Part shown: in pieces, positions 2,005 through 20,500 of the stretch
How the letters are laid out: every line of letters begins with the position of its first letter
How positions within the stretch are numbered: the stretch's first letter is position 1
IMG/VR virus record: IMGVR_UViG_3300042542_001192
Location: 1-24,010 of that record
From: a virus
Length of the DNA stretch: 24,010 nucleotides
Direction: 5' to 3' (one strand)
Program-made: the position numbers and the translations under genes
The notes under the pieces: model-generated
What the model was told of the DNA's origin: nothing
The model's database searches: none
What the model saw: the letters and a program-made list of their open reading frames with translations, nothing else

Positions 2005-4005
2005 TCACTGGTGCCGTATAAGCAGCCAGCCAAAGCTGTTGCTGCTTGAAACATCAGAATCAACTGTGAATGTCGTTGTGCTTCTTGCGCTGACCCACAG
2101 CCTTTGATTGGCACGGGCTTCAAGAAAGATCAGATAGTTTGCGTCTGCCTCTGCAACCGGCAGAGTCACAACACGTTGCGTTGAAGCTGCAAAGGTTGCT
2201 GTTGAAGCAAGATTGTTTGCGGCAGTATCTCTAGCCGCAATTCCTTGGCACCCTTTAATTGTCAGCGGGCGATACGACGGGCTGTATGACCCAGCTAATT
2301 GCATCCCAATGCCACCAGCTGCGTTGGAATACGCCAGCGAGCCAAGCACCGCACCGTCAGAGTTTCTTCGCAGCCGCAAACCCTTCCCTAAAGCTGAAAT
2401 GCCTACCGTCAATGTATCAAATGTCCCATCCCAATTATCAATGATTAGCCCTTCTTTGTTATACATCTTGGCTGGCCCCATGGGGGAGCCAACACCAACA
2501 AAATCGAGCATCACAACTGGGATGCTTAAAGAGTTCACGATGTAGTTTGTGACGCTAGTGTCCGCGTAGTTGCCAGCGAAGTATGCTGGCAGCTGAACCG
2601 TTGTGCCTGTTCCAGTAAAAGTGGCTGCGTTTGTCAGCCCCTCAAACCTATTATTTGTAATGCGGGTGCCACTTACATGGTAAATAACTGCACCACCATT
2701 CAGTTCGATTCCAGTTGCCGCAGCGGGTGCTTCAAAGAAGTTGCCATCAATTACAACGGCATTGGGCATGTATGCTTGCCCAGCATGGGGGCCAAGCCAG
2801 ACATGCGTTGTAGCTCCGCTGAAAACATTTCCTTGTAGCGTCAAAGCATTTGCAGCACCAGTAGCCTTAACCCCATAAGCCCCAAAGCCCTCAGCACCGC
2901 CCCACGGGCGTACAGAACAGCGCTCAATCCGGCACCAAAAGCAACCGGAGTCTGGATCGGAAGGCGTAAGATTCTCCAGACTGAACGCCGCGTACCCTGC
3001 TGGCAATGACCCGCTAACTACAACACTAACGTCAGAGCATGTAACCAAGCTAGCTCCGATCATTCGGATTCCAGCAACCGCTTGCGTGTTGTTCCGGTGG
3101 TAAATCGTAAAACCTTCTATTCGGCTTTGGTATGGCTGAAATCCACCACGAACATCAAAGGCAGAAATTGCACCGCTGGTTCTGATCTCAGCACCGTAAC
3201 CAGAGATCAGCAGGTTGCGCTCACCCACAAAGCCACCGCCAAGCGGAGCTCCTGTGCGGTTGATCGTGACTTGCGATCCAAACAAGTATTTACCAGGTGG
3301 GAACAATACGGACCCGCCAAGCGTCTCCACAGTGTCGATGGCAGCCTGAACTGCTGCCGCATCATCAGCAACCCCATCACCAACGGCGCCAAAGTCTTTG
3401 ACGCTGACAACATCCTTCAACTTGCTGTCGACAGTGCGAGTGACAGCGCCAGCACCGCTTTGAGTAAACGACAGCTTGCTGGCCACGATGCCAGCGGAAG
3501 CGTTCACATCAGCGTTGACGATTGCACCGTCCTGGATCTTGCCGCTGGTAACCGCACCGTCCTGGATTTTGATTGTGGTGACGGCATCACTTGATAACTT
3601 GTTGGCTGTGATTGACCCGTCTGTGACGTTTGTGTTGGGGTTGATCCCCAATACCTCGATGTAGTCCTTGTGTTCCTGGATAGCGTAGAAGTTCTGCAGG
3701 TCAGCGGTATCCAGCGCATCAGCGGTCAAGGCGCTGCCATCGTTCCAATCCACCAAGCGGCTGGTGGTTGGTGTTTCGCGGCGGATGCTCAGCGTTTGGC
3801 CAACAACCGGCGCGGCACTGAGCTGCACCTGTGTAGCACTCGTCCAGGTGTAGTTGACGCCATCGGCCAGCAGCTGCGTGTACCCCCCGCTCTGCAAGCT
3901 CAACCCGTAGTACAGCTTGACGTGTGCCCGCAGCAGGTACGGGAACGGCACTGTGAACGTGACCGTTGACCCGTTGCCCGGGTACTGCACGTAGGAGAAG
4001 GGCAC
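2005..4005 (-). CDS. tail fibre / tailspike with pectate-lyase-like beta-helix (T7 gp17-type N-terminus)
   Basis: 666 aa. Residues 1-120 resemble the T7 gp17 tail-attachment domain (FTVPFPYLLRAHVKLYYG, then LSIRRETPTTSRLVDWNDGS and ALTADALDTADLQNFYAIQE). Residues about 126-170 are decapeptide repeats (KIQDGAVTSG, KIQDGAIVNA). Residues about 200-530 begin VVSVKDFGAVGDGVADDAAA, the entry of the pectate-lyase-superfamily right-handed beta-helix, as in capsule- or LPS-degrading tailspikes. The C-terminus (SDVSSSNSFGWLLIRHQ) looks like a trimerisation or receptor tip. The start is GTG with no clear Shine-Dalgarno but a hairpin leader. The DNA for the beta-helix and tip (about 2010-3100) is visibly richer in A and T than its neighbours, suggesting exchange of the host-recognition part. 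The substrate cannot be predicted. Confidence 0.93.
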   Translation of the reverse strand: MPFSYVQYPGNGSTVTFTVPFPYLLRAHVKLYYGLSLQSGGYTQLLADGVNYTWTSATQVQLSAAPVVGQTLSIRRETPTTSRLVDWNDGSALTADALDTADLQNFYAIQEHKDYIEVLGINPNTNVTDGSITANKLSSDAVTTIKIQDGAVTSGKIQDGAIVNADVNASAGIVASKLSFTQSGAGAVTRTVDSKLKDVVSVKDFGAVGDGVADDAAAVQAAIDTVETLGGSVLFPPGKYLFGSQVTINRTGAPLGGGFVGERNLLISGYGAEIRTSGAISAFDVRGGFQPYQSRIEGFTIYHRNNTQAVAGIRMIGASLVTCSDVSVVVSGSLPAGYAAFSLENLTPSDPDSGCFWCRIERCSVRPWGGAEGFGAYGVKATGAANALTLQGNVFSGATTHVWLGPHAGQAYMPNAVVIDGNFFEAPAAATGIELNGGAVIYHVSGTRITNNRFEGLTNAATFTGTGTTVQLPAYFAGNYADTSVTNYIVNSLSIPVVMLDFVGVGSPMGPAKMYNKEGLIIDNWDGTFDTLTVGISALGKGLRLRRNSDGAVLGSLAYSNAAGGIGMQLAGSYSPSYRPLTIKGCQGIAARDTAANNLASTATFAASTQRVVTLPVAEADANYLIFLEARANQRLWVSARSTTTFTVDSDVSSSNSFGWLLIRHQ

Positions 4006-4046: not shown

Positions 4047-7000
4047 CTACTGGCGTGTCCAACCAAGAACGCTGAGCGCTTCCTCACGCTTCCGCAGCTG
4101 CTCACTGCGGCTGCGCACCATCGCCTCGTAGCGCTTGGTGAAGCTCTTGGATGCCGGGTGATCGCTACCCATCAGCTCGACCAGGGCCAGCATGTCGTAG
4201 TAGCGAATGATCTCGTCGATTGGCTGGTAGCCCTCGGACTTCTTTCGATCGGTCAGCTTGGCCTTGTTCACCCGCTTGTCGGGCCCTTCCGGGTCGATGT
4301 TTACCCATGAGCGGTAGACGGGATCGCGCATCAGCGCCCGCAGCGCTTCCGCCATGGTGCGGCCTTGAACGAACTGATCAATCGGAACACGCGCCGTGCC
4401 AAGCACATCGGCAGCGGGCCGCTCACCACGGATCGTGGACATCTGCTCGCGGTAGAAGCCCTCCTCGTCGTTCGTCATCTGCATCCCAACGCTCAGACCG
4501 TCGTCTGTTCCGACCTTCCCATCAGGCCGCGGCTTGGTGGTAATGCCGGCATCATTCAGCCACAGGTAGAGCGGATCCTGAGGCTGCAGAACGGGCATGA
4601 ACGGCACCACCGCTTCGGCGGGGATGCCAAACGGACGCTCGACCTTGGCGCCAAGCCAGTCACGGCGCACCGGTGCTTTGAGCAGCTGATTGGCACCCGG
4701 ATACGGCCGGGCAACTTTCTCGCCCACTGCCTGCACGAACTGCAGCACAGGGGCAACGAGTTCGGCATAGATCGGATCCATCCCCAACGCCTTCTTCTCC
4801 TCGGCCGACATGAACCGCCGTTTCTCGGTGGCTTCCATGGCACCTCTGCCCATCGCAGAGATGCGGCCTGCCAGGCCAGAAAGTGGAAACAGCCCTCCCA
4901 TGGAACTGGCCAACACGTCAGCCATGTCGGTGCGATCGGGCTGTGTCATGGCGTTCAGCACCGTTGTGGTGTTGAGAAGGCTGGCCTTGTTGTTGAACAT
5001 GCGGGCCAGCGCTGTGACCAGGCCTGTGCTGGCTTGCATGTAGTCGCCTTCGCTGATGCCCTCCTCCATCACCAGCTGCTGCAGATCGGCATAGAGCCCC
5101 AGGATGTCGATGGGATCGAGCCCCCCCACTCGGAACCGTGCAGCCGGAATCACCTTGCCGCCGAGCTGGAAGCTGTAGGGCGTGTTCACGCGCCGCCAGC
5201 GCTGGTATTCCTCTGGATCGGATGGGCCGCCGCCGGTGAACACGCCGCTGCTGATCGCCCCTGCACCCATCGTCAGGAACATGGCTGAGACGATCGCTTG
5301 CGCACGGGCATCAGCAATCTCGGCCGGTGTGGCGTTGGTGGTGTTGGTGCGCAGCGCTTTCAGCACAGACGGCACGATGGTTTGATCAAGCGACCAGATC
5401 AGGCTGTTCAGCGGTGTCTTGAAGAACGGCAGCTGCCACGCCACCAAGGCGTTCTGCCGCGTAACCCCTAGGCCCTGGATGATCGGATCCTTGATCGTTT
5501 CGGTGAACGTGACCTGCGCAGCACGTTGCAACCCGATCTGCCCGAGCTCGTCATCAGCGCGGGGGACGCCCTTGAGATCGTTGAAGGCCATCAGGCGCAG
5601 AACGTCATCTGGCAATTCCTCGCCAGGCGGCAGCCCGCGTTCCCGGCGCAGCTTCACCAGATCCTCAGCGCTCATGTAGCCGCTGAACATCGAATCTTCA
5701 GCCAGCTGTTCGGCGCGTTGCGCCACCCAGTCGGAACCAACCTGACGGCCGGTGGTTGAGTCCACGGTTTGCTTGGCCTCATCCCAGGCCCGCACGTAGG
5801 CCTCATGGTTCACCTTCCAGGCGTAGGCCATGCTGCGCACCGCCTCGTCGCCGGCACCCAGCAAGCGGAACGCCGGTAGGTAGCCGCCATTCCAACCCAA
5901 ATACCGCTCACCCAGCCCGCCCAGCACCTTGCTGACGCTTGCGTTCAGCACATTCATCAGCGTCACCGCTGGGCCCATGCCAGCCGTGTTGGCCCAGTAG
6001 CTGGGTCGCTGCAGCAGTGCTACCCCGGTGGTGAGGGCGTCGTCGATCATCTGCTTCTCGCGCTCGATGATCTCCGGCGCCACCTCCATGGCGTTGTCGA
6101 GGCCCATCCGCGCCTTGCCGGTGCCGAGATAGGTGATGCCGTTCTTCCACGCCATCTGCGTGGCATCCAGGGTTGCGCGGTTGGCAAAGAAAGCCGCCTC
6201 CATGCCGCCCCTGGCGCCAGCCCTGAGGGCACCAGCGGTGATGTCCTGCAGCCCTCGGTAGAAGGCCACCCCCAGACCGCTCACCGGGTTGCGCACCAGC
6301 CATGTGGTCGGGCTGGTGAGCATGTTGTTCCGCCGGAAGTTGTTGAGCAGGTGCAGCTGCGAGAAGAACGGCGCCTCGTTGATGCTGGTGCGCGTGATGC
6401 TGTTGGTCCGGGCTGCTGCGGCCAGTTGCCGCAGCTTCATCACGTCGCCGCGCTCGATGTGTTCCATCACCTGGCCCACCAGCGTTTCGCCGTTGATGTC
6501 CTGAATCGTCAGCCGCGCCAGGTTGGGATCTGGCCCGAACAGCTCAAAGCCGGCATCGCTGAAGTCGTACTGCAGGCCGCGCATGGCTTGGCCAACCCGG
6601 CGACGGGCCGCAGCGTCCAGGTTCTCGAAGAAGTGGGCCCACTGCGCCGCATAACCCAGCTCAACCCTGAGCTCGTCGCCCAGGGCGCCCACTTCCATCG
6701 CGTTGGCCGCCTGCTCGATCTTGGCGGCGTACTGGCTGACGGAATCCCAGCGGGCCTTGGCGACTGACACAATCGTTTCAGGCAGCTTGTCGATGCCTTT
6801 GAGGCGAGCGTTCAGCGCCGATGCGATGGCCTCAGCGCTGGCGTTGTTCTCCCGCATGAAGCGGATGAGGGCATTGCCGGCCACGGTGCTGGTGAACTTG
6901 CGCTTCAGCTGCACACCCTTGGGGGTGTTGGCCCGCTCAACGCCAATCGTCTCCATCAGCGCCGCAATGTTCTCGTCGCTTGGCGCAACCTTGCTGTAGT

Positions 7001-7322
7001 CGGGGAAGCCGATGCCGTAGTTCACCATTCGGCCGGTCTCACCCCGCGGGCCTTCCTTGTTGCGGAAGCCCATCTCAACCAGATCGCGGATCACCTTGCC
7101 GCCCATCGCAACCATGTCCTGCTCGGACTGCTTCACCCACGCCTCGCGGGACAGGCCGATCTCCTGCCCGGTGTAAGTGCGCAGCACATTGCGGCTGGGC
7201 CCTGCTGCTGGCAGCCCCTCGGTGTCGAGGATGGAATCGGCCGCGGCCTCCAGCTCGTCCAGCTGGCGCAGTCGATCTTCAAGATCCTGGAGCTGTTTCG
7301 TCAGATCGTTGCAGTCAGCCAT
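4047..7322 (-). CDS. internal virion / ejection protein (gp16-like, LPD-type)
   Basis: 1091 aa; T7 gp16 is 1318 aa. The N-terminus is a short coiled coil (residues 5-30). The block NMLTSPTTWLVRNPVSGLGV (333-352), the segment TFTETIKDPIIQ to LPFFKTPLNSLIWSL (605-645) and the membrane-like AQAIVSAMFLTMGAGAISSG (674-693) followed by GGPSDPEEYQRWRRVNTPYS and RVGGLDPIDILG resemble the C-terminal part of gp16-type and large polyvalent injected proteins. In T7 gp16 spans the inner membrane and pulls in the first DNA. The T7 gp16 N-terminal lytic transglycosylase domain is not visible here. ATG 7322 overlaps the upstream stop as TGATG, with AAGGAGG nine bases before it. Confidence 0.85.
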   Translation of the reverse strand: MADCNDLTKQLQDLEDRLRQLDELEAAADSILDTEGLPAAGPSRNVLRTYTGQEIGLSREAWVKQSEQDMVAMGGKVIRDLVEMGFRNKEGPRGETGRMVNYGIGFPDYSKVAPSDENIAALMETIGVERANTPKGVQLKRKFTSTVAGNALIRFMRENNASAEAIASALNARLKGIDKLPETIVSVAKARWDSVSQYAAKIEQAANAMEVGALGDELRVELGYAAQWAHFFENLDAAARRRVGQAMRGLQYDFSDAGFELFGPDPNLARLTIQDINGETLVGQVMEHIERGDVMKLRQLAAAARTNSITRTSINEAPFFSQLHLLNNFRRNNMLTSPTTWLVRNPVSGLGVAFYRGLQDITAGALRAGARGGMEAAFFANRATLDATQMAWKNGITYLGTGKARMGLDNAMEVAPEIIEREKQMIDDALTTGVALLQRPSYWANTAGMGPAVTLMNVLNASVSKVLGGLGERYLGWNGGYLPAFRLLGAGDEAVRSMAYAWKVNHEAYVRAWDEAKQTVDSTTGRQVGSDWVAQRAEQLAEDSMFSGYMSAEDLVKLRRERGLPPGEELPDDVLRLMAFNDLKGVPRADDELGQIGLQRAAQVTFTETIKDPIIQGLGVTRQNALVAWQLPFFKTPLNSLIWSLDQTIVPSVLKALRTNTTNATPAEIADARAQAIVSAMFLTMGAGAISSGVFTGGGPSDPEEYQRWRRVNTPYSFQLGGKVIPAARFRVGGLDPIDILGLYADLQQLVMEEGISEGDYMQASTGLVTALARMFNNKASLLNTTTVLNAMTQPDRTDMADVLASSMGGLFPLSGLAGRISAMGRGAMEATEKRRFMSAEEKKALGMDPIYAELVAPVLQFVQAVGEKVARPYPGANQLLKAPVRRDWLGAKVERPFGIPAEAVVPFMPVLQPQDPLYLWLNDAGITTKPRPDGKVGTDDGLSVGMQMTNDEEGFYREQMSTIRGERPAADVLGTARVPIDQFVQGRTMAEALRALMRDPVYRSWVNIDPEGPDKRVNKAKLTDRKKSEGYQPIDEIIRYYDMLALVELMGSDHPASKSFTKRYEAMVRSRSEQLRKREEALSVLGWTRQ

Positions 7323-10300
7323 CAGCAGGAACCTCCTTGGTGTTTCTTGCGCAGCTCCTCAAGCTGCTGGCGCAGGGCCGCACGCTCTGAGGCGATGTCG
7401 GCCTTGGCTTGCGTGGCCTGCTGCTGCATCGGTGTGGCAGCCGCCTTGCCCTTGCCCTTGGGCTGCGCCTTGGGCTTGGGCTGCGCCTTGCCAGCCTTTG
7501 CTGCATCTGCGGCGGGCGCGGACGCCTGGCTCACCGCATCTTTCGGCACCACCATCGGTTGGCCGTTGATGCTGACGAACACATCCGCGGTGTCGTAGGT
7601 CTGCGGTTTGCGATCGGGCTTCGCCTTCAGCTCTGGCGTGAACGGCGCGACGTTCTGCGCCGCGGCCGATCCCTCGCCTCGATACGGCTGCGCGGTGCGC
7701 TCGCCGCCGACCGGCAGCTCTGGCGTGAACGGCGCGACGTTCTGCGCCGCGGCCGTTCCCTCGCCTCGATACGGCTGCGCGGTGCGCTCGCCGCCGACCG
7801 GCAGCTCTGGCGTGAACTCCGGTGTCGGTGGCCGCACCTGATCAAGCGGTGCTGCCAGATCGTCGCGGCTGAACGCGAACATGCCGCGGCCCATCAGCCC
7901 GAGCCGCTTTTTCTCGTCCCAGCTCAGGGTGTCCCAACCCTTTGAGGCCATCCAGGCATCCTGCAGCGCCTGCTGCGCCTTGGCATCGAGCACGTTGTAC
8001 TCAAACCGCAGCCGCATCTCGTCGATCAGCGCATCAGCGTTCTTGCCGCCGGCCTTGTAGGGCGGCAGCACATCGTTGAGGAACTGCAGCGGCAGCTGAC
8101 CGCTCGGGTCGGCCAGCAGATCGTCGGCAAAGCTGCCCTGGTTGAAATACTGCGGGCCGTTGGGGCGGTTGGGGATTGGTGTCACCGGTGCCTGCACCTC
8201 ACCGTTGTCGATGGCACGGCGCAGGATCTCGGCCTTCAGCCGCTCGCGTGTTTGCGCATCCATGCCACGGGGCTGGTAGTCATCCATCGGCACGGTGATG
8301 GGGTTGCCATCGGCATCAACGGCTTGCCCCATCCGGCTGGTGGTGCCCAGATCAGCCGGCACATCCAGCAGCGGTGCATCGGCTTCGCCTGCCAGGTTGC
8401 GCGTCAGCTGCAGGCCCAGCTGGTCCGCCTCTGGCGGAAGGAACATGCCCCGGCGGGTGCTGAGCTCTACCAGGGCATCAATGATGTCGGACTTCTTGGC
8501 ACTCCACACCCGCCGGCCGGTGCGGAGCTTGACCAGTGCTGCCACTTCGGGAGAGGAATCGGGCATGGACAGGCGGCGCAGCGTGTCACGCGGCCACCCC
8601 TCCAGCGCCGAGCGGTAATCGTCTGGCGTGCGGTAGCCGTATTCCCCCGGTCCACGGGCAATCTGCTGAAGCGGTGGCAGCTGAATGTCAGGCGCCAGAT
8701 CAAGGCCCGGCTGCCAATTCATGGACATCTCCAGCTGCTGCCCAACGGTGGTTTCCGGGACGGCCATCCGCTGCTGGATTGCCTGCAGCTGCAGCTGGGC
8801 TGCTTGCAGTTCGCGTTCGGCGCGAGTGATCAACCCCTTGGCGCCACGCGGCGTGATCTCGCCGGCCGCCTGGCGAGCGTTGATCTCCTCCAGCCGTTGC
8901 GTCAGCTGTTGCACCTGCTCTTGCGTGGCAGTCAGCTCCTGCGCATTGCGCTCGGCTCCTACTTCACGCCAGACGCGGGAATGAATCTCGCGCAGCTGAG
9001 GATCGCTGAGCTCGTCCAGTTGCGCGAGGTAGGTGTCGAGCTCTGGTCTGGTGTCCAGGTCCAGCTCTGTTTGACGGCTACCCCGTGGTGCCAGGAACTG
9101 CTCAGTGGTGCCGCTGAGTGTCAGGTCCGCTACCTGAGTGTCAAGCTCGTCGAGCTGCTTTGAGATTTCCTTGGCGGCATCAGGTTGCTCGCTCAGGCGC
9201 TGCAGCAGCAGGCCCCGCTCGCCCTGCAGCTGGCGGATCTGCTGCGCCACTTCAGGGTCAGCCGTGTCCGCAATGCTCAGATCGAGCTGGCCACCTTCAC
9301 CCTGTTTGACCAGGCCGGCATCGAGCAGCCGCTGGCGCTGCTGTTCCACTTGGCGAATCTGGGTGGCCTCATCGAAGTAGCGCTCGATTGCGCTGCCATT
9401 GGGGGTGGCCGGCACCATCGCCCCGCCCGGTTGATAGGTGGGCAGCTGCGGCAGGCCGGGCGGGGTGCCCGGCAGTGTTCCGCCGGGGGTGTCCAGGTTG
9501 ATGGCAACCGGCGTGATCGGGCTGCCATCGGCGGCGGCCTGCATCTGAGCGCTCGGCAGCTGCGGCAGGCCGAACGGGGTGCCCGGCAGTGTTCCGCCGG
9601 GGGTGTCCAGGTTGATGGCAACCGGCGTGATCGGGCTGCCATCAGCAGCGGCCTGCATCTGAGCGCTCGGCAGCTGGGGGGCGCCGGGGCCCGGGGGGAG
9701 CTGCGGCTGCCGGAAGTTGCGCCACTGGCGGGTGTAGGGCTCCAGCTCCTGATCGGCCAGGTCATCCAGCCACTGCACGCCCTCGCCGCCGAACATGGCC
9801 CGGCGTGCTGCAGGTAGGAAGGACAGGGCACCGATAGCGGTAAGCGGGGCCGCAAGCCCCTCGACCATCACACCCTTGCCGAAGGCCTCCAGGTAGTTGT
9901 CGTCCTTCTCGACGCGCCCGGGCAGCCGCCAGCCAAACGCATCGGGCACGTTCGCCAGGTTGCCCGTGCTGTAGTCAACGAACGGCGCTGCCAGCGTGGT
10001 TCCGACCAAGGCCTCACCGACGTTCTTGCCAACCTGCACCGCCGTGCGCAGGGGGGCGCTGGCCCGTTGCGCCACAGCAAGCCCCCGCACCGCGCGGGTG
10101 GCCTTGGCCGCATCCGCAGCCCGCTTGAGCAGCCCCACCTGCCCCAGCCGGCGCAGCAGCGTGGCGCCGGTGGCGGCACCAAGCACTTCGGCACCGATGG
10201 CCCCGCCCAGCGACAGGCCGGGGTCATCAGCGGGCGTCACCTCGTTGTAGTTCGGGCCAATCCGAAATGGGTTCAGCTGCCGAGCAGCGGCCTTGGGGAT

Positions 10301-10642
10301 TTGCCAGGCATCGCTGGTGTCGATCGGCTTGCGCTGCACCGCATCGCCAATGGCGTTGGTGAGCTTGCTGACTGCATTGATCGGACCCACCACCAGGCCC
10401 GCCTTTGTGTCAGGCGAAGCCAGCGTGTTCATGAACTGCGCAAACGGTTTCAGCGGGCCGGCCTGGCTTTCCAGTCGCCGTTCCCAGAAGGCCCGATTAG
10501 GCCTCGGTCGTGCGGCCTGCGTGCCGCCACCCTGCTGGGGCTTCCCGCCGCCGCCGCCCTGCTGGGGCACCGGACGCACATCAGGAAGCACCGGCTCGAT
10601 GTCCGAGAAATCGTCGATCTGTGGAAGGTTGAAAGCGGGCAT
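7322..10642 (-). CDS. large internal/ejection protein with tandem linker duplications
   Basis: 1106 aa from ATG 10642; AAAGGAG lies seven bases upstream, a GTG one codon earlier is less well placed, and the stop of the gp15-like gene overlaps as TGATG. A Gly/Pro/Gln-rich N-terminus leads into hydrophobic Gly/Ala segments (LSLGGAIGAEVLGAATGATL near residues 142-165; APLTAIGALSF near 270) that could enter a membrane. Then come two 38-residue Pro-rich repeats (about 325-401), a coiled coil (about 520-640), a stretch SAKKSDIIDALVELSTRRG like short helix-extended-helix DNA-binding motifs, two 29-residue repeats (about 948-1005) and a basic Ala/Lys-rich tail. No lysozyme-like or other catalytic motif is evident. 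Its position between gp15- and gp16-like genes suggests an ejection-core component; no firm family is recognised. Confidence 0.8.
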   Translation of the reverse strand: MPAFNLPQIDDFSDIEPVLPDVRPVPQQGGGGGKPQQGGGTQAARPRPNRAFWERRLESQAGPLKPFAQFMNTLASPDTKAGLVVGPINAVSKLTNAIGDAVQRKPIDTSDAWQIPKAAARQLNPFRIGPNYNEVTPADDPGLSLGGAIGAEVLGAATGATLLRRLGQVGLLKRAADAAKATRAVRGLAVAQRASAPLRTAVQVGKNVGEALVGTTLAAPFVDYSTGNLANVPDAFGWRLPGRVEKDDNYLEAFGKGVMVEGLAAPLTAIGALSFLPAARRAMFGGEGVQWLDDLADQELEPYTRQWRNFRQPQLPPGPGAPQLPSAQMQAAADGSPITPVAINLDTPGGTLPGTPFGLPQLPSAQMQAAADGSPITPVAINLDTPGGTLPGTPPGLPQLPTYQPGGAMVPATPNGSAIERYFDEATQIRQVEQQRQRLLDAGLVKQGEGGQLDLSIADTADPEVAQQIRQLQGERGLLLQRLSEQPDAAKEISKQLDELDTQVADLTLSGTTEQFLAPRGSRQTELDLDTRPELDTYLAQLDELSDPQLREIHSRVWREVGAERNAQELTATQEQVQQLTQRLEEINARQAAGEITPRGAKGLITRAERELQAAQLQLQAIQQRMAVPETTVGQQLEMSMNWQPGLDLAPDIQLPPLQQIARGPGEYGYRTPDDYRSALEGWPRDTLRRLSMPDSSPEVAALVKLRTGRRVWSAKKSDIIDALVELSTRRGMFLPPEADQLGLQLTRNLAGEADAPLLDVPADLGTTSRMGQAVDADGNPITVPMDDYQPRGMDAQTRERLKAEILRRAIDNGEVQAPVTPIPNRPNGPQYFNQGSFADDLLADPSGQLPLQFLNDVLPPYKAGGKNADALIDEMRLRFEYNVLDAKAQQALQDAWMASKGWDTLSWDEKKRLGLMGRGMFAFSRDDLAAPLDQVRPPTPEFTPELPVGGERTAQPYRGEGTAAAQNVAPFTPELPVGGERTAQPYRGEGSAAAQNVAPFTPELKAKPDRKPQTYDTADVFVSINGQPMVVPKDAVSQASAPAADAAKAGKAQPKPKAQPKGKGKAAATPMQQQATQAKADIASERAALRQQLEELRKKHQGGSC
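7629..7802 (-). repeat. two tandem 87-bp repeats (29 aa each)
   Basis: Units 7629-7715 and 7716-7802, with a partial third copy from 7803. I see a single base difference between the two full units. Encoded unit: TPELPVGGERTAQPYRGEG followed by TAAAQNVAPF. In frame, near the C-terminus of the 1106-aa protein; near identity implies a very recent duplication or active homogenisation. Confidence 0.95.
9441..9668 (-). repeat. two tandem 114-bp repeats (38 aa each)
   Basis: Units 9441-9554 and 9555-9668, with the start of a third from 9669. They differ at only a few bases. Encoded unit: PSAQMQAAADGSPITPVAIN followed by LDTPGGTLPGTPFGLPQL. The in-frame period and near identity point to a recent tandem duplication in a Pro-rich linker. 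Confidence 0.95.
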
Positions 10643-13600
10643 CACTTCACTCCTTTAATGCGGATGCGGCCCGTGCCACGTTGGGTGCTGCCAAATAACT
10701 TGCGGAACGCAGCTGGCGACAGATCAATCACCCTGGGGTCAGTGCGATTGATGGATTGCTCGGTGCCTCCCATCTGCCCAACATCGTTCACCCACACCCG
10801 CACAGACCTGCCGGTGTCGAGGTCTTCTACCGTCACCCACTTGTTCAGATACTTCCCACGCTGAGACCACTGCACAGCAGCCGTCATCTTGTTTGGATCG
10901 TAGATTTCACCATTGGCTGTAGGGCCGCCAGCCACACCATCTGAACCGCCGCTGCCGTTGTAGTAAGTGGCAATGCCCGTAAGGCCGCCGCCGGGTCGCG
11001 TTGTAGGAGTGGCCATGCTGATCTGCGTAGATGAACTGGTTGATCTGCCGCCGCTCACCATGCGACTGGTGACAAACCGACGCAGGCCATCAAAGTCTTG
11101 GTAAGGGGTCATGTCTCTGCTGCCAGCTGGCCGCGGCGCAAGGAAGTCAACCGAAGCAATCGTGCCGTCAGCAGATTTCACATTGCCGGTTCCGCCTTGC
11201 TTGCCAATCAACTGGCCGGCGTTGATCGTTTGCCCCTGGCGCACATAGACCCCGCCATCTGGCAAGTGGCCATAAAGCACATCAACCGTCTGCCCGTTGC
11301 GTGGGTCGGTGGACTCGACAACCACATAGTTCCCATAGCGAGGTTCGCGGCCAACGTCCTTTACCCGACCGGTGAGAACAGCAGGGAACTGCTTGGAGCG
11401 GAACCAGTAATCAACACCGGGCTGGTTGCCTCGCCCTGGGCGCTCGTAGACGACTGACTCAGGCTTCTCAAACTGCCCCGGGCTGCCTGCCGGAAATCTC
11501 TCCGCACCACCCATGAAGCTCGGCGGCAAGGTGGCAGCTGCAGCCGGCGGCGCAATCATGCTCATCAGCCAGCCGCCAGCCGCCAGCGGGTTCCAGCCAC
11601 CAAGCCCATCACGCACGACCGAGCTCACCTGATTGCCGGCCACCGTTCTCGCTGGTCTCTGCTGCCTGATCTTCTCCTCAAGCCAGCGCTTTGCCTCGCC
11701 CTTGGGGTCAAGGGTTGGGTACATCTTCAGCTGTTCCAGCAGGTAGTTGAAGGTGGTGGTATTGGCGCGACGGGCCATGTTGTAGAGCTCGGGGCTCACC
11801 GGCTTGCCGCGCTGCAGCTGCTGCAGTTCCCCGTACACCCACCGCGGCTCCATGACCGGCCGGCTTTGATACGTGCGGATCGTGTCGTCTGAAAGCTTCC
11901 TGGCGCCTTCACGGGGCACCCCGCGGGCATCCCTGGGGTTGGTGCCCACCTTGCGCGGGCCAAGCTCCCCGGGCTGGCGGCCGGTGAGCTCCTTGATGAT
12001 CTGCACATACTGCGGTGACTTGCGGGCCCGAGCCGCCGCTTCCGACATTTCAACGCTGCGCTGCGCGGGGCTGAGCTGACGACCTGGGTTCTCGGCCTTC
12101 CAGTTGCGGATGCCCGTAGACAGTTCTCGCTCGTAGAGCGCCGTGAGCCGATTCGCGGCTGCGGTGAGCTGGGCGTTCTGGTAGGTGGAGGCCACAGCGG
12201 CTGACACCGAAACGCCACTGCCTATCTGACTTGCCATCATCTGAGACAGCATTGGACCCTGCTTGCCGCCGACTTTCTGCTTGTCACGGATCTGGCGAAC
12301 CGCATCGCTATCGAGATCCTGCAGCACCTCCTGTTGCACGCGATCGCGCACACCCGCATCAAAATCAGCCGCACTGGAACGGGCCTTGTCGATCTTGCCG
12401 ACCAATAGCTGGTAGGTTTCTCGCTGCCCTTCCGGTGTTGGCTCCTGGCTTGCAATCTGCTGGGCCTGCCTCAGCGCATTGGCGTAGGCGTTCGGGTCAT
12501 CAGTCCATGCTGATGGCGGCATCATGCCAATCTCAACCGCAAAGTTCTCGGCGAGGAATGGATCGGGCGGCCTGACCACTTGGATGTATTCGCTGCGTTC
12601 TTTCCCACGCCGAATCACATAAGACTCCACATCCAAGAAGCCAAGAGCCGCGGCCTTGATCTGAAAATCTCGGATTGTTGGCAGCCAGTTCGGATCGCCC
12701 CGGGTAAGCCTGCCGGGCCCGGCATCCCAGATCTCATCAACCTTGAGCTTCAGCGTCTGCTGCTTCAAATCGTGCTGCTCTTGCGTGGCCTTCATGCCAC
12801 GCACCTGCAGCTCCTGCATCTCCAGTGGTGCCATGGCACCCCATGTCGGCCGCTTCTCGTAAGGCATCGACGGATCGCCGCCTCGGATGCTCTGCAGCAA
12901 TCCGGCGGCAAACGGCCCGGCGTTGCCATACGTGCCGCCCACCTGTGCGCGGATGTACTGGATCGCACGCGCACGGGCTTCTGGGTCGAGCAACCGCAGC
13001 TGCTGATCCAGTCCCTGCGTGAGCACCGCCGCACCGTATTCACGCCACTCCGCTGTGCCGCGCTTGTAGGTGACGCCATCCACCACAGCGTCGTTTTTCA
13101 GGATCTGATCAACAGTGGCGCCCAGCGCTGCAGTAGCAGCAGACGTTGTTGAATCCTCGACTGCCTTGTTGTAGAACTTCCGCTGCTTGTCGGTGTACTG
13201 CTCAGAGGCCTTGTTGACCCGCGGCGTCACGTAGAAGTTGACCTCCAGCTCGTCGCCGGTCAGCCCGTAGCGACCCAGCGCCTGGCTGGTGAGCTGCACC
13301 TGCCGCGCTTTCAGCGCAGGACTGCCTGGCTTCATCTGTGCCAGTAAGCCAGCACTGTTGACCAGATCGTCCTCCAGGGCGTTTTCGACATCGGCTGCTA
13401 CAAGCTGCGCCACTGCTCGCCGCTGACCGATCAGTGCCCACGGGTTGGATTCCTTCAGCAGTTGCGCTGCCTCTGGGTCGCGCTTCTGCAGCTGGCCAAT
13501 CGTGCTCGCAGCATCCGCTGCACCGGTTTCCGCCTGCACCTGCAGGCTGAGCTGTGCCCGTGCGTATTGGTTGCGGGCCCTGTAGTAGCCCTCCTCGATC

Positions 13601-13869
13601 TTGCCCTTCGCGTAGCTCTCGTATCCCGTCTCTGCCGTTTTCATCAGCGCACTGCTGAACGGCGCCAAGGCTGCAGCCAGTTGCTGGAACTGGTTGAACC
13701 CCTGCACGTTCGTGGTGCCGCTCTGCTGCAGCGTGTCGATCCCACGCGCCGCGGGGAGCTCTACCGGTCGCGCTGGTCCCGGAGTGTCCTGCTGGGCAGC
13801 CTGCACAAACGCGCCGATCGGCCGCGCCGTTGGCGTCACCTGTCCGAATGGCAGCATCCGATCAGCCAT
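10642..13869 (-). CDS. internal virion protein (gp15-like) with M23-like and RlpA-like C-terminus
   Basis: 1075 aa, longer than T7 gp15 (747 aa). Residues 1 to about 780 are mostly helical, Gln/Ala/Arg-rich, in keeping with gp15, which extends the ejection channel through the periplasm. Residues about 817-912 resemble an M23 peptidase domain (PGVDYWF, GNYVVVES, DVLYGHL, INAGQLIGKQGGTG), but the first His ligand is Gln/Pro and the final HLH is replaced by ASVDFLA; D820 and H868 remain, so it is probably not an active zinc peptidase. Residues 962-1075 resemble the RlpA double-psi barrel (GIATYYNG, TANGE, VNDVG, VIDLSPAAFRKLFG), with the acid pair E988 and D1029 kept. An accessory murein-cutting or binding role during DNA entry is inferred. 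The start is three bases after gp14. Confidence 0.85.
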   Translation of the reverse strand: MADRMLPFGQVTPTARPIGAFVQAAQQDTPGPARPVELPAARGIDTLQQSGTTNVQGFNQFQQLAAALAPFSSALMKTAETGYESYAKGKIEEGYYRARNQYARAQLSLQVQAETGAADAASTIGQLQKRDPEAAQLLKESNPWALIGQRRAVAQLVAADVENALEDDLVNSAGLLAQMKPGSPALKARQVQLTSQALGRYGLTGDELEVNFYVTPRVNKASEQYTDKQRKFYNKAVEDSTTSAATAALGATVDQILKNDAVVDGVTYKRGTAEWREYGAAVLTQGLDQQLRLLDPEARARAIQYIRAQVGGTYGNAGPFAAGLLQSIRGGDPSMPYEKRPTWGAMAPLEMQELQVRGMKATQEQHDLKQQTLKLKVDEIWDAGPGRLTRGDPNWLPTIRDFQIKAAALGFLDVESYVIRRGKERSEYIQVVRPPDPFLAENFAVEIGMMPPSAWTDDPNAYANALRQAQQIASQEPTPEGQRETYQLLVGKIDKARSSAADFDAGVRDRVQQEVLQDLDSDAVRQIRDKQKVGGKQGPMLSQMMASQIGSGVSVSAAVASTYQNAQLTAAANRLTALYERELSTGIRNWKAENPGRQLSPAQRSVEMSEAAARARKSPQYVQIIKELTGRQPGELGPRKVGTNPRDARGVPREGARKLSDDTIRTYQSRPVMEPRWVYGELQQLQRGKPVSPELYNMARRANTTTFNYLLEQLKMYPTLDPKGEAKRWLEEKIRQQRPARTVAGNQVSSVVRDGLGGWNPLAAGGWLMSMIAPPAAAATLPPSFMGGAERFPAGSPGQFEKPESVVYERPGRGNQPGVDYWFRSKQFPAVLTGRVKDVGREPRYGNYVVVESTDPRNGQTVDVLYGHLPDGGVYVRQGQTINAGQLIGKQGGTGNVKSADGTIASVDFLAPRPAGSRDMTPYQDFDGLRRFVTSRMVSGGRSTSSSTQISMATPTTRPGGGLTGIATYYNGSGGSDGVAGGPTANGEIYDPNKMTAAVQWSQRGKYLNKWVTVEDLDTGRSVRVWVNDVGQMGGTEQSINRTDPRVIDLSPAAFRKLFGSTQRGTGRIRIKGVK

Positions 13870-14754: not shown

Positions 14755-15212
14755 CAGGCTGCCCTCCAGAAGTGGCAGAACAGCTGGCAGCTGCGCCCCA
14801 TCGGCTCAGGCGTGTCGATCGTGAACCCGAGATGCCGCAGCCATCGCAGCGTGGTCAGGTTGCTCGCCAGCGCCCAGTTCTCCAGATACCGAAAGCCGTG
14901 CCGCTCAAACAGCGAATCCACCCACCGCCGACCTTCCCGCAGAAACTGACGCCGATTACCGGCAGTGGCCAACAGCTCATCGGTGGCCAGCAGCCAGATC
15001 ACGCTGCCCCCGTCGCCACCGACGCCACAGATGCCCACAGCGCTCCCGTCTTCTGCACCAATGCAACGACAGATTGAGGACATGCGCCAGCTCTCTTGCA
15101 CGGCCAATTCTGCCGTCAGCTGGTGGCTGTAGAGGACTTCCAGCCGATCCTGGTAACGCATCCGCTCGGCAATGCGCTGCACCCCTGCAGGTGTTGGTTC
15201 AGTCCACCTCAT
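14754..15212 (-). CDS. gp13-like virion-associated protein (DUF2833 / GNAT-like)
   Basis: 152 aa, close to T7 gp13 (138 aa). The frame opens upstream, but ATG 15212 is chosen because GAGGAG lies six bases before it and it overlaps the tail tubular B stop in an AATGA arrangement. The sequence resembles the DUF2833/gp13 family, which has an acetyltransferase-like fold: RIAERMRYQDRLEV near the N-terminus, a central strand GSAVGICGVGGDGGSVIWLL, and a C-terminal helix-strand pair (ENWALASNLTTLRWLRHLGF) like the end of GNAT domains. In T7, gp13 is needed for proper internal virion protein assembly; its enzymatic activity, if any, is unproven. The position between gp12 and gp14 supports the call. 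Confidence 0.82.
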   Translation of the reverse strand: MRWTEPTPAGVQRIAERMRYQDRLEVLYSHQLTAELAVQESWRMSSICRCIGAEDGSAVGICGVGGDGGSVIWLLATDELLATAGNRRQFLREGRRWVDSLFERHGFRYLENWALASNLTTLRWLRHLGFTIDTPEPMGRSCQLFCHFWRAA

Positions 15213-18200
15213 TGCAGGCTCCTCGCCTGGCCGGTCATCAGGCCCACCCACTCGCACGAACTGAACTTGCAGGGGTGTGGCGTGTCGTTCAGCAGCTCAA
15301 CGACGCAGTTCTCGCCGCGACTGTTGATCGGGATGCGGAACACCCCCTCGGCGTAACGCATCGCCTCGGCCTCGGCCTGGTTCAGCGAGCTGCCGATCAG
15401 CGAATTGCGGCTGCCCAGAATCGTGCCATCAAACGTATAAGTGGCCGCATCGCGCCGTTCCGCCATCACCTGCACCCTGAAATAGAAGGTTTCGTGGTAA
15501 CGCAACTTGGCATGACGCACTTGCGTTCTCATCACATTGGCTGCAGTCTTACCGCCGCCGATGTCCCGATACAGCTTGAATCGCGTGAACCGATAGCGGA
15601 AGGTGAACGCCTCCCCGAAGAACACCGGCGCCGTGCTCCAGTTGCCAAATGCTGTGATCGTGTTGCCGCTGCTTGCCTGCCCCAGCAGCACGCCACCGTT
15701 GACGGTCGCAGTCCAACCGCTCCATGCCTGCGTCAGCGCTTGGATGGTGTACGGCAGCGTCCAGGTGGTGGTGTTTTGCACAGCGTTGTAGGTGCCGGCC
15801 GCCACGCGCAGCGCCACAGGCGTCGCCGTGGTTGTGGTCACCGTCCGATCCAGCAGCAGCAGCGATGGGCTTGGGCTGGCACTGGTCATCCGGTCAGTCA
15901 CTGGCATCGACTCCAGCCAGACCTCCGTCCCGTACCGCACCAGCAGGTACAGCACTTCCTCCACGCACAGGATCGAGAGGATCTCGTCAGCCCCGCTCAG
16001 CTCCCAGTGGCTCCAGCTGGACTGGGCGCGTTCCACGCCGCCACCGGTGTTGCGGTAGAGGTATTTGTAGACGTAGATCCGTTTCTGGTAACCGCTGGCG
16101 CTTGAGATAGCAAACCAAGCATTGCCCGTATCATTAGCCGTCAGCTTGAATGTCCCGGATGGGATGTAGCTGGACACTGCCATCGTTAGATCCGACGCAT
16201 CCGCAATCAGCGCAGTGCCCGCGCCGCGCACACTGAACTCGCGGAACTGACTCCACTGCCCGTTGGCCATGCAGAACACAATCGTGCCCTGCACCGGAAT
16301 CGGCCGGCAGTTGGGATCCATCTCGTAGCTGGTCAGCACCGTGATCTGCGCTGTGCTGGGTGTCAGCACGGTTTCAGCAGCGTTGAACCGGAACTGGATC
16401 TGATCGGAGAAGATGATCAGCTCGTCCTGGTATGGCACCGCATACCGCAGCACGCTTACCCGGTTGTTGCTGGCCGCAAGGTCGATCGGGTCTGAATCCA
16501 GAATCGCCGTGACCGTTTCCGGGAAGAACTCAAAGAAGTCCCGCGCCCGGCTGAGGATCACGTTCTCGTCTGCCAGGAACCCGAGCCGGTTCTTGTAGAT
16601 GAACACGTCCTGGATCGGCTGGCCGATGAACGATGGATCCGGTGCCGTCTCGTAGTCGCCGGCCGTGCGCTGCCCCCAGGTGGGGATCGTGACGCCGCTC
16701 ACGATGGCGCCATTGGCCGGGCCAAACCAGAACGCGCCGGTTGGCAGCCGCACCAACAGATGCGGCATCGTGCCCTGATCAATCCGGTACTCAACGCCGG
16801 GGCTGACCGTTTCCTGCCAGCTGCCCTCGCCAAACGTGCCGCTGCGGCAGGTGAAGGACACGTAGTAGCCGTCGAACTTGTTACCCGGATCGCCCACCAC
16901 CTCGATCTGATAGCCGGACGGTGCGATCGTCGGCAGCTCGGTGAACGCCTGCACGCTGTTGGTGATCGCCGTGATGTCTGCGTTAGCCCTGGCATCGGTG
17001 GCAGCAAGCGTGATCGCGCTGCTGCTGGTGAGATGCAGCACCGAACCGCTGCGAGCAATCGTGACCCCCGTCAGCGGGCCGGCCGCGGCGGTGCTCACCG
17101 TTGCCACCTGAACCGCTGTTTCGTCAATCACATGGGCTTTCACCGTGGCAATCTGCATCGCCGTGGTGTCGGAGTTGGTGACCGCTGTGATCGTGGCAAC
17201 GTGAACCTGCGTCGTGTCCGATCCGCTGCCGTCCAGAACGTTCCTGGCAATGTAAATCTTGGAGCCAATGTGATACCGCACGCCAGCAGCGTTGACGGTG
17301 ATGGCAGTCACCGCCGTGCCATTGCCGGTGACATTCAGCGTCAGGCCAGTGCCTCCGGTGTTGGTCGTGGTGGCCAGGCCGGTGGCAGTGGCATTAAGCG
17401 TTGTGGTTGCGCCCTGGTTGCTGAGCGTGCTGACGGGGCCACCCTGCAAGCGGTTTCGAGCTACTGAGATGGCGCCATCCGCTCGATAGCCGCTGCCTGG
17501 GTTGTTGCCAACAACCGTTGCCGTCAGCTTTGCGCCATCGCCTGTGATCGTCACAGTCAGCCCGCTGCCGCTGCCGCCAGTGGTCGGCACGTCAATCAAG
17601 GTGCCGTTCAGCGTGCTGCCGGCTCCCTCGTTGTTCAAAGCCGTCACCGCGCCACCGTTCAGCAGCCCGCGCTGCACGAACACCCTGTCACCGGCGCGAT
17701 AGCCCGATCCGGCAACATTGATCGCCGCAGCTGTGATGACGCTGCCGTTGCCGGTCACATTCACGGTCAGCCCGCTGCCGCCCTCGTCGGTGGTCGTCGC
17801 AGTGCCGGTGACGGTGCCGTTCAGCGTGGTCGCCGAACCCTGCACGGTGATGGCCGAAGGTGCGCCACCCAGCAGCGCCCCACGAAGTCGCGCAGCAATC
17901 TCTGCCGTGCTGACCCGGTTCTCGGTCGTCGTGCTGCCATTCACCACCACAGGCGCCACAGCGGTGGCCACCGTGACCTGCTGGCTGTTGATGTTGAGCG
18001 TGTAGCGCTGGCCGTAGTTGGCCGCCTTCACCCACACCAGCGCTTCGTTCGCGGCTGGCCGGGCCACAGCAGGCGCCAGGGCAGTGTCCATCGCTGGCAC
18101 GGCCTTGGTGTTGCTGATGAATGTGTAGTCGGCGATCGAGGCGGCCCGGATGTCGGCCTTTGCGCTCACCACCGACGACAGATAGCTGAACGCACCGCTG

Positions 18201-18499
18201 GCGACGGTGACCGTCCGCTCGACGCCCGTCAGATCAAACACCCGGATGGCCGTCTTGCTGATCACCGCCAGGTACTGCTCGGTGGCATCGCGCAGGATCT
18301 GATGGAAGAACACGTCGCCGAAGCTGGTGGTGCTCACCCGTGCGATGCAGCTGCTGCCTTCGCGCTTGCGCAGCCCCTCCGCAGCAGAGCTCATCCCATT
18401 GATCTGCACCTCACCTTGTGTGGGGTCGCGCTGAGCATCCGGTTGCTGGCTGATCCCCTGGAACAGATTGGGGATGGAATAGGAGACGAGATCAGCCAC
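15209..18499 (-). CDS. tail tubular protein B (T7 gp12-like nozzle) with triple insert
   Basis: 1096 aa, far longer than T7 gp12 (about 794 aa). The protein forms the hexameric tail nozzle below the gp11 ring. I start it at GTG 18499 because the product then begins MADLVSYSIPNLFQGISQQP, matching the T7 gp12 N-terminus with its GISQQPD and NGxSS signatures; the open frame extends 11 codons further up but lies inside tail tubular A. Residues about 221-426 hold three tandem copies of a 62-73-residue beta module (TLNGT, then SGLTVNVTGNG, then GSGYRAG), followed by a degenerate stretch to about 475, all apparently inserted between the family blocks NRVSTAEIAARLRGAL and SVQAFTELPTIAPSGYQIEV. Residues 520-1096 (KNRLGFLADENVILSRARDF, SDQIQFRF, and so on) are standard nozzle sequence. 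Confidence 0.94.
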   Translation of the reverse strand: MADLVSYSIPNLFQGISQQPDAQRDPTQGEVQINGMSSAAEGLRKREGSSCIARVSTTSFGDVFFHQILRDATEQYLAVISKTAIRVFDLTGVERTVTVASGAFSYLSSVVSAKADIRAASIADYTFISNTKAVPAMDTALAPAVARPAANEALVWVKAANYGQRYTLNINSQQVTVATAVAPVVVNGSTTTENRVSTAEIAARLRGALLGGAPSAITVQGSATTLNGTVTGTATTTDEGGSGLTVNVTGNGSVITAAAINVAGSGYRAGDRVFVQRGLLNGGAVTALNNEGAGSTLNGTLIDVPTTGGSGSGLTVTITGDGAKLTATVVGNNPGSGYRADGAISVARNRLQGGPVSTLSNQGATTTLNATATGLATTTNTGGTGLTLNVTGNGTAVTAITVNAAGVRYHIGSKIYIARNVLDGSGSDTTQVHVATITAVTNSDTTAMQIATVKAHVIDETAVQVATVSTAAAGPLTGVTIARSGSVLHLTSSSAITLAATDARANADITAITNSVQAFTELPTIAPSGYQIEVVGDPGNKFDGYYVSFTCRSGTFGEGSWQETVSPGVEYRIDQGTMPHLLVRLPTGAFWFGPANGAIVSGVTIPTWGQRTAGDYETAPDPSFIGQPIQDVFIYKNRLGFLADENVILSRARDFFEFFPETVTAILDSDPIDLAASNNRVSVLRYAVPYQDELIIFSDQIQFRFNAAETVLTPSTAQITVLTSYEMDPNCRPIPVQGTIVFCMANGQWSQFREFSVRGAGTALIADASDLTMAVSSYIPSGTFKLTANDTGNAWFAISSASGYQKRIYVYKYLYRNTGGGVERAQSSWSHWELSGADEILSILCVEEVLYLLVRYGTEVWLESMPVTDRMTSASPSPSLLLLDRTVTTTTATPVALRVAAGTYNAVQNTTTWTLPYTIQALTQAWSGWTATVNGGVLLGQASSGNTITAFGNWSTAPVFFGEAFTFRYRFTRFKLYRDIGGGKTAANVMRTQVRHAKLRYHETFYFRVQVMAERRDAATYTFDGTILGSRNSLIGSSLNQAEAEAMRYAEGVFRIPINSRGENCVVELLNDTPHPCKFSSCEWVGLMTGQARSLQ
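17222..17839 (-). repeat. three tandem coding repeats inside tail tubular B
   Basis: Copies are residues 221-293, 294-364 and 365-426 of the protein (17621-17839, 17408-17620, 17222-17407). Each has a TLNxT entry, a GGSGLTVNVTGNG-like strand pair, a GSGYRAGDRVFV-like strand and an LxGGxVTALxNxGA exit. Copy 3 is the most diverged (VRYHIGSKIYIARN replaces the GSGYRAG region). They are protein-level repeats, not near-identical DNA, so the duplication is old or under selection to diverge. Confidence 0.85.
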
Positions 18500-19148
18500 G
18501 CAGGTAGCCCCGGTTGCGGCCCAGCAGACCAAGACCTGGCGAGTAGGTGGGGAACGGCCTCATCCCGGGACCGCCGGTCAGGCTGTTCGCCTGCAGCTGA
18601 TCCATCTCAACCGCCTGCAGCGCTGTCAACGCCGCCTGCTCATCCACCGCCGTGTACCGGAACGAGGAGGAGTCGCCCAGCACGCGACCGCTGAACACCC
18701 GCGCTGAGCGGATCGTCACCCATCGGTTGAACGCTTCAGGGCTCTCGTCCCACGACAAGAGGAACACCACATCAGCCTTGAGGGATGTGACATCACTGCC
18801 CAGGGAATAGGTGCGCTTCTCGCGGTCGTACACCCGCTGGCCGCGCAGCTGAAACCGGCCGGCCCACTCGTAGGCATCCGCGGCCCACCTGACCACATTG
18901 GTCGGCACCACGATCTCGTTGTTGTTGTCCTTGGTGAACTCGTAGGCCTGTTCGCTGTTCCAGCTCCAGCCGTTGACCTGCCCCTCCTTGTGGAACTCCA
19001 GCAGGGTGCGCTCAGCCATCGAGGCCTCAACGATCTGCTGGGTTTCCAGCGTGTTGACCGGCTGCTCGCCGATCACGGCCAGCAGGGTATTGACCGCTTC
19101 CAGCAGGGTCGTGCGGCCCGGCGTCACTGCCTGGTTGGAGATCGGCAC
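18492..19148 (-). CDS. tail tubular protein A (T7 gp11-like, gatekeeper)
   Basis: 218 aa, near the 196 aa of T7 gp11. It forms the dodecameric adaptor ring under the portal that holds the DNA in and carries the nozzle. Family-like features are the N-terminal TLLEAVNTLLAVIGEQPVNT segment, the EFHKEGQVNGWSWNSEQAYE motif (residues 51-70) and the central FLLSWDESPEAFNRWVTIRS stretch followed by ARVFSGRVLG. The start is GTG with a weak GCAGG six bases upstream; no ATG lies upstream in frame, so this start is the best available. It follows the capsid terminator, and its last codons overlap tail tubular B by eight bases. Confidence 0.94.
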   Translation of the reverse strand: MPISNQAVTPGRTTLLEAVNTLLAVIGEQPVNTLETQQIVEASMAERTLLEFHKEGQVNGWSWNSEQAYEFTKDNNNEIVVPTNVVRWAADAYEWAGRFQLRGQRVYDREKRTYSLGSDVTSLKADVVFLLSWDESPEAFNRWVTIRSARVFSGRVLGDSSSFRYTAVDEQAALTALQAVEMDQLQANSLTGGPGMRPFPTYSPGLGLLGRNRGYLRG

Positions 19149-19255: not shown

Positions 19256-20500
19256 TTAGGGGATCTCGATGACCCCGGCGCACTCAGGCCGCAACACGCT
19301 CATGCCGATCGCCATGCGAGCAACCATCAGCGTGGCCTGGTACATGATGTTGAAATCCCCTCCCTGGGGCGTGACCTGCAGGCCGATGTTCTTCAGGGTG
19401 AGAACACCGATCGCGTCTTTGTGGAACACCATGCCGCGACACTTCGACAGATCCTGCTGATAGGCAGTGTTCCGATCGAGCGTGTTGTTGGTGTACGCCG
19501 GCTGGGTGACGTGGTTGGACCACATCACCGGGATGCCCTTGACGCGCATGATGCGACCTTCGGCAATGGTGCCGTTGCCGCCACCGGCGCCGTTGAAGTC
19601 GGCGTTGATCGCCCTGGTTGAATCCAGAAGGCAGTCATACTCCGACGGGGGCACCACGGCGATCATGTCCTCAACGGGCACGTCCTTGGCCTGCATCTGC
19701 ACCTTCAGTGCCGAGATGGCAGCAATCAGGCTGTCACCACGGCTGTTGGTGGTGGCAGTGGTGTAGCCGGCAGGCAGGGTCTGGGTCTGGCCAATGCGGC
19801 CAGCGCTCGGACCGCCAACGGCAGTCACCGTGGTGGAGGCTGCCGTCTGCGACACCGACACCGTGTAGGTGCCGCGCAGACCGATTGCATCGCCGCTGGT
19901 CTGGGTCAGCTGGGCGGTGATCACGGTGCCGGCGGTGATGCCGCTACCGCTGATCGTCTGTCCCGGGTAGATGCGACCGCTGGTGACAGCGGTGACGGTC
20001 AGGGTGGTCGTGGCAATCGAGCCGGTCACCACCGCACCACCACCGGAGAGCAGCGGTTCCGTTGTGGTCTTGGCTGCGCCAAAGATCACGCGGGCGGCCC
20101 GCTGGTCCCACTCCCGAGCCAGTGCCTGGCCGAGCTGATGGGTCAGGTCTTGCCGCTGGTCCACGTAATTCATGAGCTCGTCGAGCTCATAGATCACTTC
20201 GGACGCAACCAGCAGACCATCGAGGTTGATGATGTACTCGTTGCGGTCAGCGTTGGTGGCGCTGGGATCGCCCAGAATCGCGGTGCCAGGTGTGTGATAC
20301 GAAGCCGTGTGGCGGCCGGTCACCTGGAAGGCAGCGCTCTTGCCGCCGCGGATGTTGCGCTCCTTGACCTTGCCCTTGAACACGCATTTGCGGTCGAAGG
20401 CGTCAAGAATCTCGGTCATGCCGAGCTTCAGGAACAGGGCATTGACATCCCCTGCCTGTTTGATCTGACCAAGACGGTCGAGGTTGGTGAGACTGGTCAC
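19256..20500 (-). CDS. major capsid protein (T7 gp10-like) with extra beta domain
   Basis: 414 aa; T7 gp10A is 345 aa. It forms the HK97-fold shell. The N-arm and E-loop region (residues about 45-95), a spine-helix-like stretch ([20 protein letters not shown], 122-141), the P-domain block [20 protein letters not shown] (253-272) and the C-terminal [20 protein letters not shown] (386-405) fit the T7-type shell protein. Residues about 161-227 are a Thr/Val/Gly-rich beta segment ([11 protein letters not shown] to [18 protein letters not shown]) that looks inserted and resembles modules seen in phage surface proteins. The start is GTG; the nearest AGGAG (20520-20524) is 19 bases upstream, so initiation is unusual. 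A strong terminator follows the gene. Confidence 0.95.

Follow-up and report, generated by a model that had tools for sequence, protein, structure and literature searches.

A 1075-residue protein from a T7-like relative of the Synechococcus podoviruses is best read as a gp15-type tunnel protein with an exchangeable C-terminal murein cassette. In this reading, which we consider fairly likely, an RlpA-like double-psi β-barrel would cut the glycan strands, and a LytM-fold domain would grip peptidoglycan or position or activate the cutter. The protein is encoded in a 24,010-nucleotide fragment of an IMG/VR virus contig (the window, meaning the whole stretch of DNA analyzed), whose minus strand encodes the structural proteins of a T7-like phage. 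The features on which the argument draws are the following:

10642–13869, minus strand: gp15-type ejection (internal virion) protein, 1075 aa, assigned from synteny, body fold, and homologs in phage S-SRP02 and many IMG/VR contigs
11560–13869, minus strand: helical gp15 body, residues 1–770, from the predicted model and Foldseek; conserved in 63 relatives
11056–11475, minus strand: M23/LytM-fold domain with an altered active center, residues 799–938, from Pfam M23, VIA, and relatives
10645–10986, minus strand: RlpA-like double-psi β-barrel, residues 962–1075, from Pfam DPBB_1 and VIA
7322–10645, minus strand: 1107-aa protein between the gp15 and gp16 types; no lytic domain detected
4047–7322, minus strand: 1091-aa gp16-type protein, matching phrog_6651 (internal virion protein; E = 2.1e-7 at residues 678–822); no lytic domain detected

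Gene order and fold of the gp15-type protein

The minus-strand genes encode a portal and a scaffold protein (both named from position and comparison with S-SRP02), the capsid protein, gp11/gp12-type tail proteins, a gp13-type protein, a protein in the gp14 position, the 1075-aa, 1107-aa, and 1091-aa gp16-type proteins, and a T7-type tail fiber. The nearest isolate, the freshwater Synechococcus podovirus S-SRP02, has an identical gene order. Based on Pfam and PHROG matches, the central order is gp13, gp14, gp15, the 1107-aa protein, and the gp16-type protein, the gp14 match being itself weak (E = 0.026). The 1075-aa gene thus lies between gp14 and a large gp16-type protein, which is the position of the tubular ejection protein gp15 in T7.

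Using a model of the body predicted separately from the C-terminal domains, we found that the best four Foldseek matches are all T7 gp15 (9jyy, 7k5c, 6yt5, and 6ysz; best E = 9.9e-4). Comparison with T7 gp15 in VIA gave Z scores of 8.6–9.1, which are modest for a helical protein; the phiM1 OEP and the A-4L internal protein stand lower in the same match list. Because the predicted fold matches T7 gp15 first, the gp15-type identity is supported beyond synteny, and by gene order and modeled fold together the 1075-aa protein is a gp15-type ejection protein, as the first-pass annotation had it. Decay of the gene or of its frame is ruled out by the intact open reading frame and by purifying selection.

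Neither of the other two large proteins, nor any of their relatives, yielded a lytic-enzyme domain in Pfam, PHROG, or NCBIfam searches, which bears out the first-pass reading. A profile comparison with small in-house seed sets gave no lytic match either but had little power, its positive control (SLTK-SLT) scoring a probability of just 11%. Where gp15 carries no such domain (L105, L106, and S38C3), no compensating lytic domain was found on the neighbors. The 1107-aa protein contains two repeats within its sequence as well as a stretch resembling a coiled coil, and is conserved in relatives; its matches to a tape-measure PHROG (E = 0.026) and to an NCBIfam SMC model are weak and coiled-coil-like, and were set aside.

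Three further minus-strand genes have additional domains or repeats. At 2005–4005, the N-terminus of a T7-type tail fiber is joined to a pectate-lyase/β-helix domain, possibly a depolymerase. The gp12-type nozzle protein (15209–18532) contains about three glycine-rich repeats at residues ~230–440, apparently outside the nozzle family model, and residues 154–234 of the major capsid protein (19256–20500) form an insert that matches another family, phrog_21413.

Domain exchange at the C-terminus

Relatives were gathered by body, barrel, and M23-like domain, and their C-termini were classified with Pfam, PHROG, and small in-house profiles, several partner classes being defined by motif, PHROG, or in-house profiles only. 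The combination of M23-like domain and barrel occurs in the window and in L023, L061, L078, L080, L082, L085, and L094. Elsewhere, the barrel is joined to an M15 domain, a canonical M23 domain (L062/L063), a divergent M23-like domain (L066/L068), a C39/C70-type domain (L012), or an unnamed His-rich domain (L071), or it stands without a recognized partner (L056, L057, L064, and L065). Slots that have no barrel hold a glucosaminidase, lysozyme-like, SLT-like, or CHAP-like domain (the last named by eye; its PHROG is endolysin) or nothing recognizable, and a search of gp15 in L105, L106, L125, S38C3, and S37C6 found no recognizable murein domain. In most of the family the slot is filled by murein domains, namely SLT, glucosaminidase, M15, canonical M23, or lysozyme-like. 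The gp15-type C-termini of L073, L076, and L095 extend 200–260 residues of unrecognized kind beyond the lytic domain.

On a tree of 64 bodies we counted at least 25–26 changes of architecture, compared with about 44 when labels were shuffled; the tree is a quick one with several long branches, which makes the count approximate. Close pairs are independent of the tree. Bodies that are 84–95% identical carry different domains in L080/L084, L089/L095, L058/L061, and L137/L140, and in the first of these pairs (84% identity) the M23-like domain and barrel of one member face an SLT-like domain in the other. Judged from these sequences, murein-acting cassettes are rapidly exchanged at the gp15 C-terminus.

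The choice of partners follows a pattern. A peptidase-type fold adjoins the barrel in 20 of 22 cases and a glycosidase-type domain accompanies it in none of the 22, although the phylogenetically independent pairs, 5:0 for each rule (sign test, p = 0.06), are too few for significance. When the barrel is absent, the M23-like domain pairs with SLT or lysozyme-like domains (S-CBP4, L026, L028–L030, and L045). Since the barrel is never found with a glycosidase-type domain and the M23-like domain acquires an SLT or lysozyme-like partner in its absence, the barrel seems to stand in for a glycan cutter. This pattern matches both RlpA chemistry and the A-1(L) hub barrel.

The RlpA-like barrel and the altered LytM-fold domain

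Residues 817–1075 (11421–10645, minus strand) had been described in the first-pass annotation as a degenerate M23 domain followed by an RlpA-like barrel, and its coordinates and residue assignments (GVDY and YGHL kept, first His and HLH absent, E988 and D1029 present, TAAV in place of TAAH) all proved correct. The barrel is matched by Pfam DPBB_1 at residues 964–1070 (E = 1.7e-11, 44.6 bits against a cut-off of 28.8; E = 1.5e-14 in another search). The structure search that had been recommended for the C-terminus returned an RlpA-like fold: in VIA, the AlphaFold2 model of the C-terminal domains, which has a moderate pLDDT of 74 and several low-confidence loops, aligns with the RlpA-like protein PA4485 (4avr) at Z 14.8 (rmsd 1.8 over 94 residues) and with residues 285–391 of the cyanophage A-1(L) hub at Z 13.2. 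Three positions are central:

10906–10908, minus strand: E988, acidic in 25 of 25 barrels (Glu in 20, Asp in 5)
10873–10875, minus strand: V999, at the position of the RlpA TAAH His, Val in 25 of 25 barrels
10783–10785, minus strand: D1029, equivalent of the RlpA catalytic Asp, present in 25 of 25 barrels and aligned with the Asp of INDRG in 4avr

D1049 is also invariant among the barrels, and the RGPF loop of RlpA is replaced. The RlpA of P. aeruginosa is a lytic transglycosylase (PMC6895207, PMC9712689) whose catalytic Asp is D168 (PMC9712689). The window barrel shares the double-psi fold and this Asp but differs in having Val for the His, in being part of a larger protein rather than a separate lipoprotein, in lacking a SPOR domain (no Pfam match in the 1075-aa protein), and in falling below the cut-off of the RlpA family model TIGR00413 (32.9 bits against 82.15). 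A genome-contig scan with barrel profile patterns found no relative of the barrel that could represent a cellular source.

The loss of the RlpA His points to altered chemistry, and with the RGPF loop also replaced, catalysis may be altered or lost. On the other side, E. coli RlpA, which has Ser for the Asp, is inactive (PMC9712689), so retention of the Asp in the phage barrels points to activity. In addition, the 'endoglucanase' domain of the A-1(L) hub (residues 266–430) can lyse Anabaena cells, and single substitutions at its conserved residues lead to loss of activity or expression (PMC10966104); given the structural alignment with this hub, we count that result in favor of cutting. P. aeruginosa RlpA requires glycans freed of peptides (PMC6895207), and since the barrel has no neighboring amidase gene in the window, this requirement counts against cutting. 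Taking fold and residues together, the barrel probably cuts glycan strands.

The barrel could instead be non-cutting, binding peptidoglycan or loosening it in the manner of expansins and, with an inactive LytM domain, anchoring the tunnel in the wall. Expansins, kiwellin, and loosenin do share the fold match, both domains deviate from the enzyme consensus, and the uniform replacement of His by Val and the inactivity of the E. coli protein are both compatible with such a role. However, D1029 is invariant and position 988 is always acidic, and among bodies 84% identical the cassette stands in the place of an SLT-like domain, so that a non-cutting barrel would leave those phages with no recognized murein cutter. 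We regard this alternative as unlikely.

The preceding domain is matched by Pfam Peptidase_M23 at residues 818–898 (E = 7.9e-9, 36.0 bits against a cut-off of 28.7), and in the same AlphaFold2 model VIA aligns it with LytM (2b13) at Z 13.8 and with the LytM domains of DipM and EnvC at Z 12.8 and 12.7, confirming the M23 fold that had been called degenerate. Its former active center reads as follows:

11422–11424, minus strand: Q816, replacing the first M23 zinc His, invariant in 29 regex-selected relatives and in a set of 20
11410–11412, minus strand: D820, the retained M23 zinc Asp, invariant in relatives
11266–11268, minus strand: H868 of YGHL, retained, invariant in relatives
11146–11154, minus strand: S906-V907-D908, replacing His-x-His, with Ser and Asp invariant in relatives

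Instead of the HxxxD motif and the second His of HxH that supply the M23 zinc ligands, the domain has Q816xxxD820 and S906-x-D908. Two of three zinc ligands are lost, as is the first His of HxH. The altered center (Gln-x3-Asp, the YxHL His, and Ser-x-Asp) does not vary among the close relatives; the regex behind the 29-sequence alignment required QPGxD, on loci chosen beforehand by six different peptide patterns, and these residues are equally invariant in the second set of 20. In the divergent relative L066, Glu takes the place of Gln. For both the M23-like domain and the barrel, dN/dS is mostly 0.05–0.2, indicating purifying selection; one M23-like pair (L030/L031) gave 0.72 on very few changes. 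The M23-like domain is also common to three body families without detectable similarity to one another. A match of the M23-like profile to the designed repeat protein SAKe6BC is a repeat artifact.

The invariant center, the selection on it, its presence in three body families, and its SLT or lysozyme-like partners elsewhere mark the domain as a maintained module, and the residue pattern with low dN/dS indicates that the old M23 cleft keeps a maintained function. The first-pass annotation's 'M23 relic' is therefore too weak a term, and the binding role it proposed is one option next to that of a LytM regulator. A LytM fold with its catalytic residues lost is what defines the degenerate regulators EnvC, NlpD, and DipM, and the parallel with DipM and EnvC offers a lead toward a regulator role, although here the domain is fused in cis to a putative wall-cutting domain, in a virus. 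Cellular LytM domains that are inactive but have a cleft of this kind bind to amidases and activate them; both AmiC and a lytic transglycosylase are stimulated by DipM (PMC10336132). We tentatively raise the possibility, in which we place limited confidence, that this LytM-fold domain is a distinct phage module and not a dead peptidase. It would be a viral DipM/EnvC counterpart that activates or guides SLT, lysozyme-like, or RlpA-like cutters in cis, and it might also bring in the host amidase and so provide the barrel with glycan stripped of peptides.

That the domain is still a hydrolase, with a center rebuilt from Q816, D820, D908, H868, and S906 and the barrel as an accessory, is quite improbable. 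Those five polar positions are invariant among relatives, and the domain is under purifying selection and takes the place of M15, C39/C70, or canonical M23 domains in relatives, but only one of the three zinc ligands remains, the general-base His is missing, and many carriers also have an SLT or lysozyme-like domain. Against it we also count that we know of no M23 peptidase with ligands of this type.

Related systems and a proposed role in infection

The earlier proposal that the cutting job moved to gp15 agrees with the finding of no lytic domain on the gp16-type side, but such a location is not new, since gp15-type proteins with a murein-active domain have been described before, namely phiKMV gp36, K1-5/K1E (PMC5380687, PMC8954989), and the phiM1 OEP (PMC11440229). 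As in the window protein, the murein-active domain of phiKMV gp36 and the phiM1 OEP is C-terminal on the gp15-type protein and not confined to gp16 (PMC5380687, PMC11440229); theirs is of lysozyme type, whereas the window protein has an RlpA-like barrel and an altered LytM domain, and phiM1 differs further in having an endolysin-like domain on its gp16-type protein as well. The internal protein of Anabaena phage A-4L (PDB 9K2V, AGR48555), whose pre-ejectosome structure is among the structural matches of the window protein, also occupies the gp15 position and carries an M23 domain (E = 1.3e-21) followed by a lysozyme-like stretch. Thus, by sequence, an M23-plus-lysozyme arrangement is already present there, with a canonical M23 (HxxxD, HLH) and no barrel. 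The hub gp15 of the Anabaena myophage A-1(L) (PDB 8KEA) likewise combines two domains in a single virion protein, a double-psi barrel and a peptidase, each of which lyses Anabaena (PMC10966104). It is a baseplate hub rather than an ejection protein, however, and retains TAAH in the barrel and HLH in the M23 domain.

In the mechanism we favor, the gp15-type protein would exit the capsid at infection and its body would build a periplasmic tunnel, around which the terminal barrel would cleave glycan strands locally, with D1029 as general acid/base assisted by E988. The LytM-fold domain would cut no peptides; its conserved cleft would hold peptidoglycan or position or activate the glycan cutter. 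A role in end-of-infection lysis was proposed for the S-SRP02 homolog ORF45 (L002:10001–12907), published as an amidase lysis gene in a genome where no lysozyme gene was found (PMC8790148); for the 1075-aa protein it is hardly credible, as both its place in the gene order and its fold correspond to gp15 ejection proteins and the window has a separate YkuD-type gene (46–564), whose S-CBS4 homolog is annotated as endolysin. The 172-aa product of that minus-strand gene has an L,D-transpeptidase fold with the HGCIR motif, and its homologs occur in the Synechococcus phages S-CBS4, S-CRM01, and B23. ORF45 itself is a gp15-type homolog of the window protein with a lysozyme-like C-terminus, suggesting that what was named an 'amidase lysis gene' in S-SRP02 encodes an ejection protein.

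As far as we found in the literature, an RlpA-like barrel on a podovirus ejection protein is new, as are the LytM module with its conserved altered center, the rate at which domains are exchanged, and the rules that this exchange follows. The comparison brings to light a widely shared, uncharacterized LytM-fold module and offers naturally occurring sets of almost identical bodies that differ in their cutters. Podoviruses of the cyanophage type repeatedly swap the wall-breaching tool on their tunnel protein while the tunnel body is retained.
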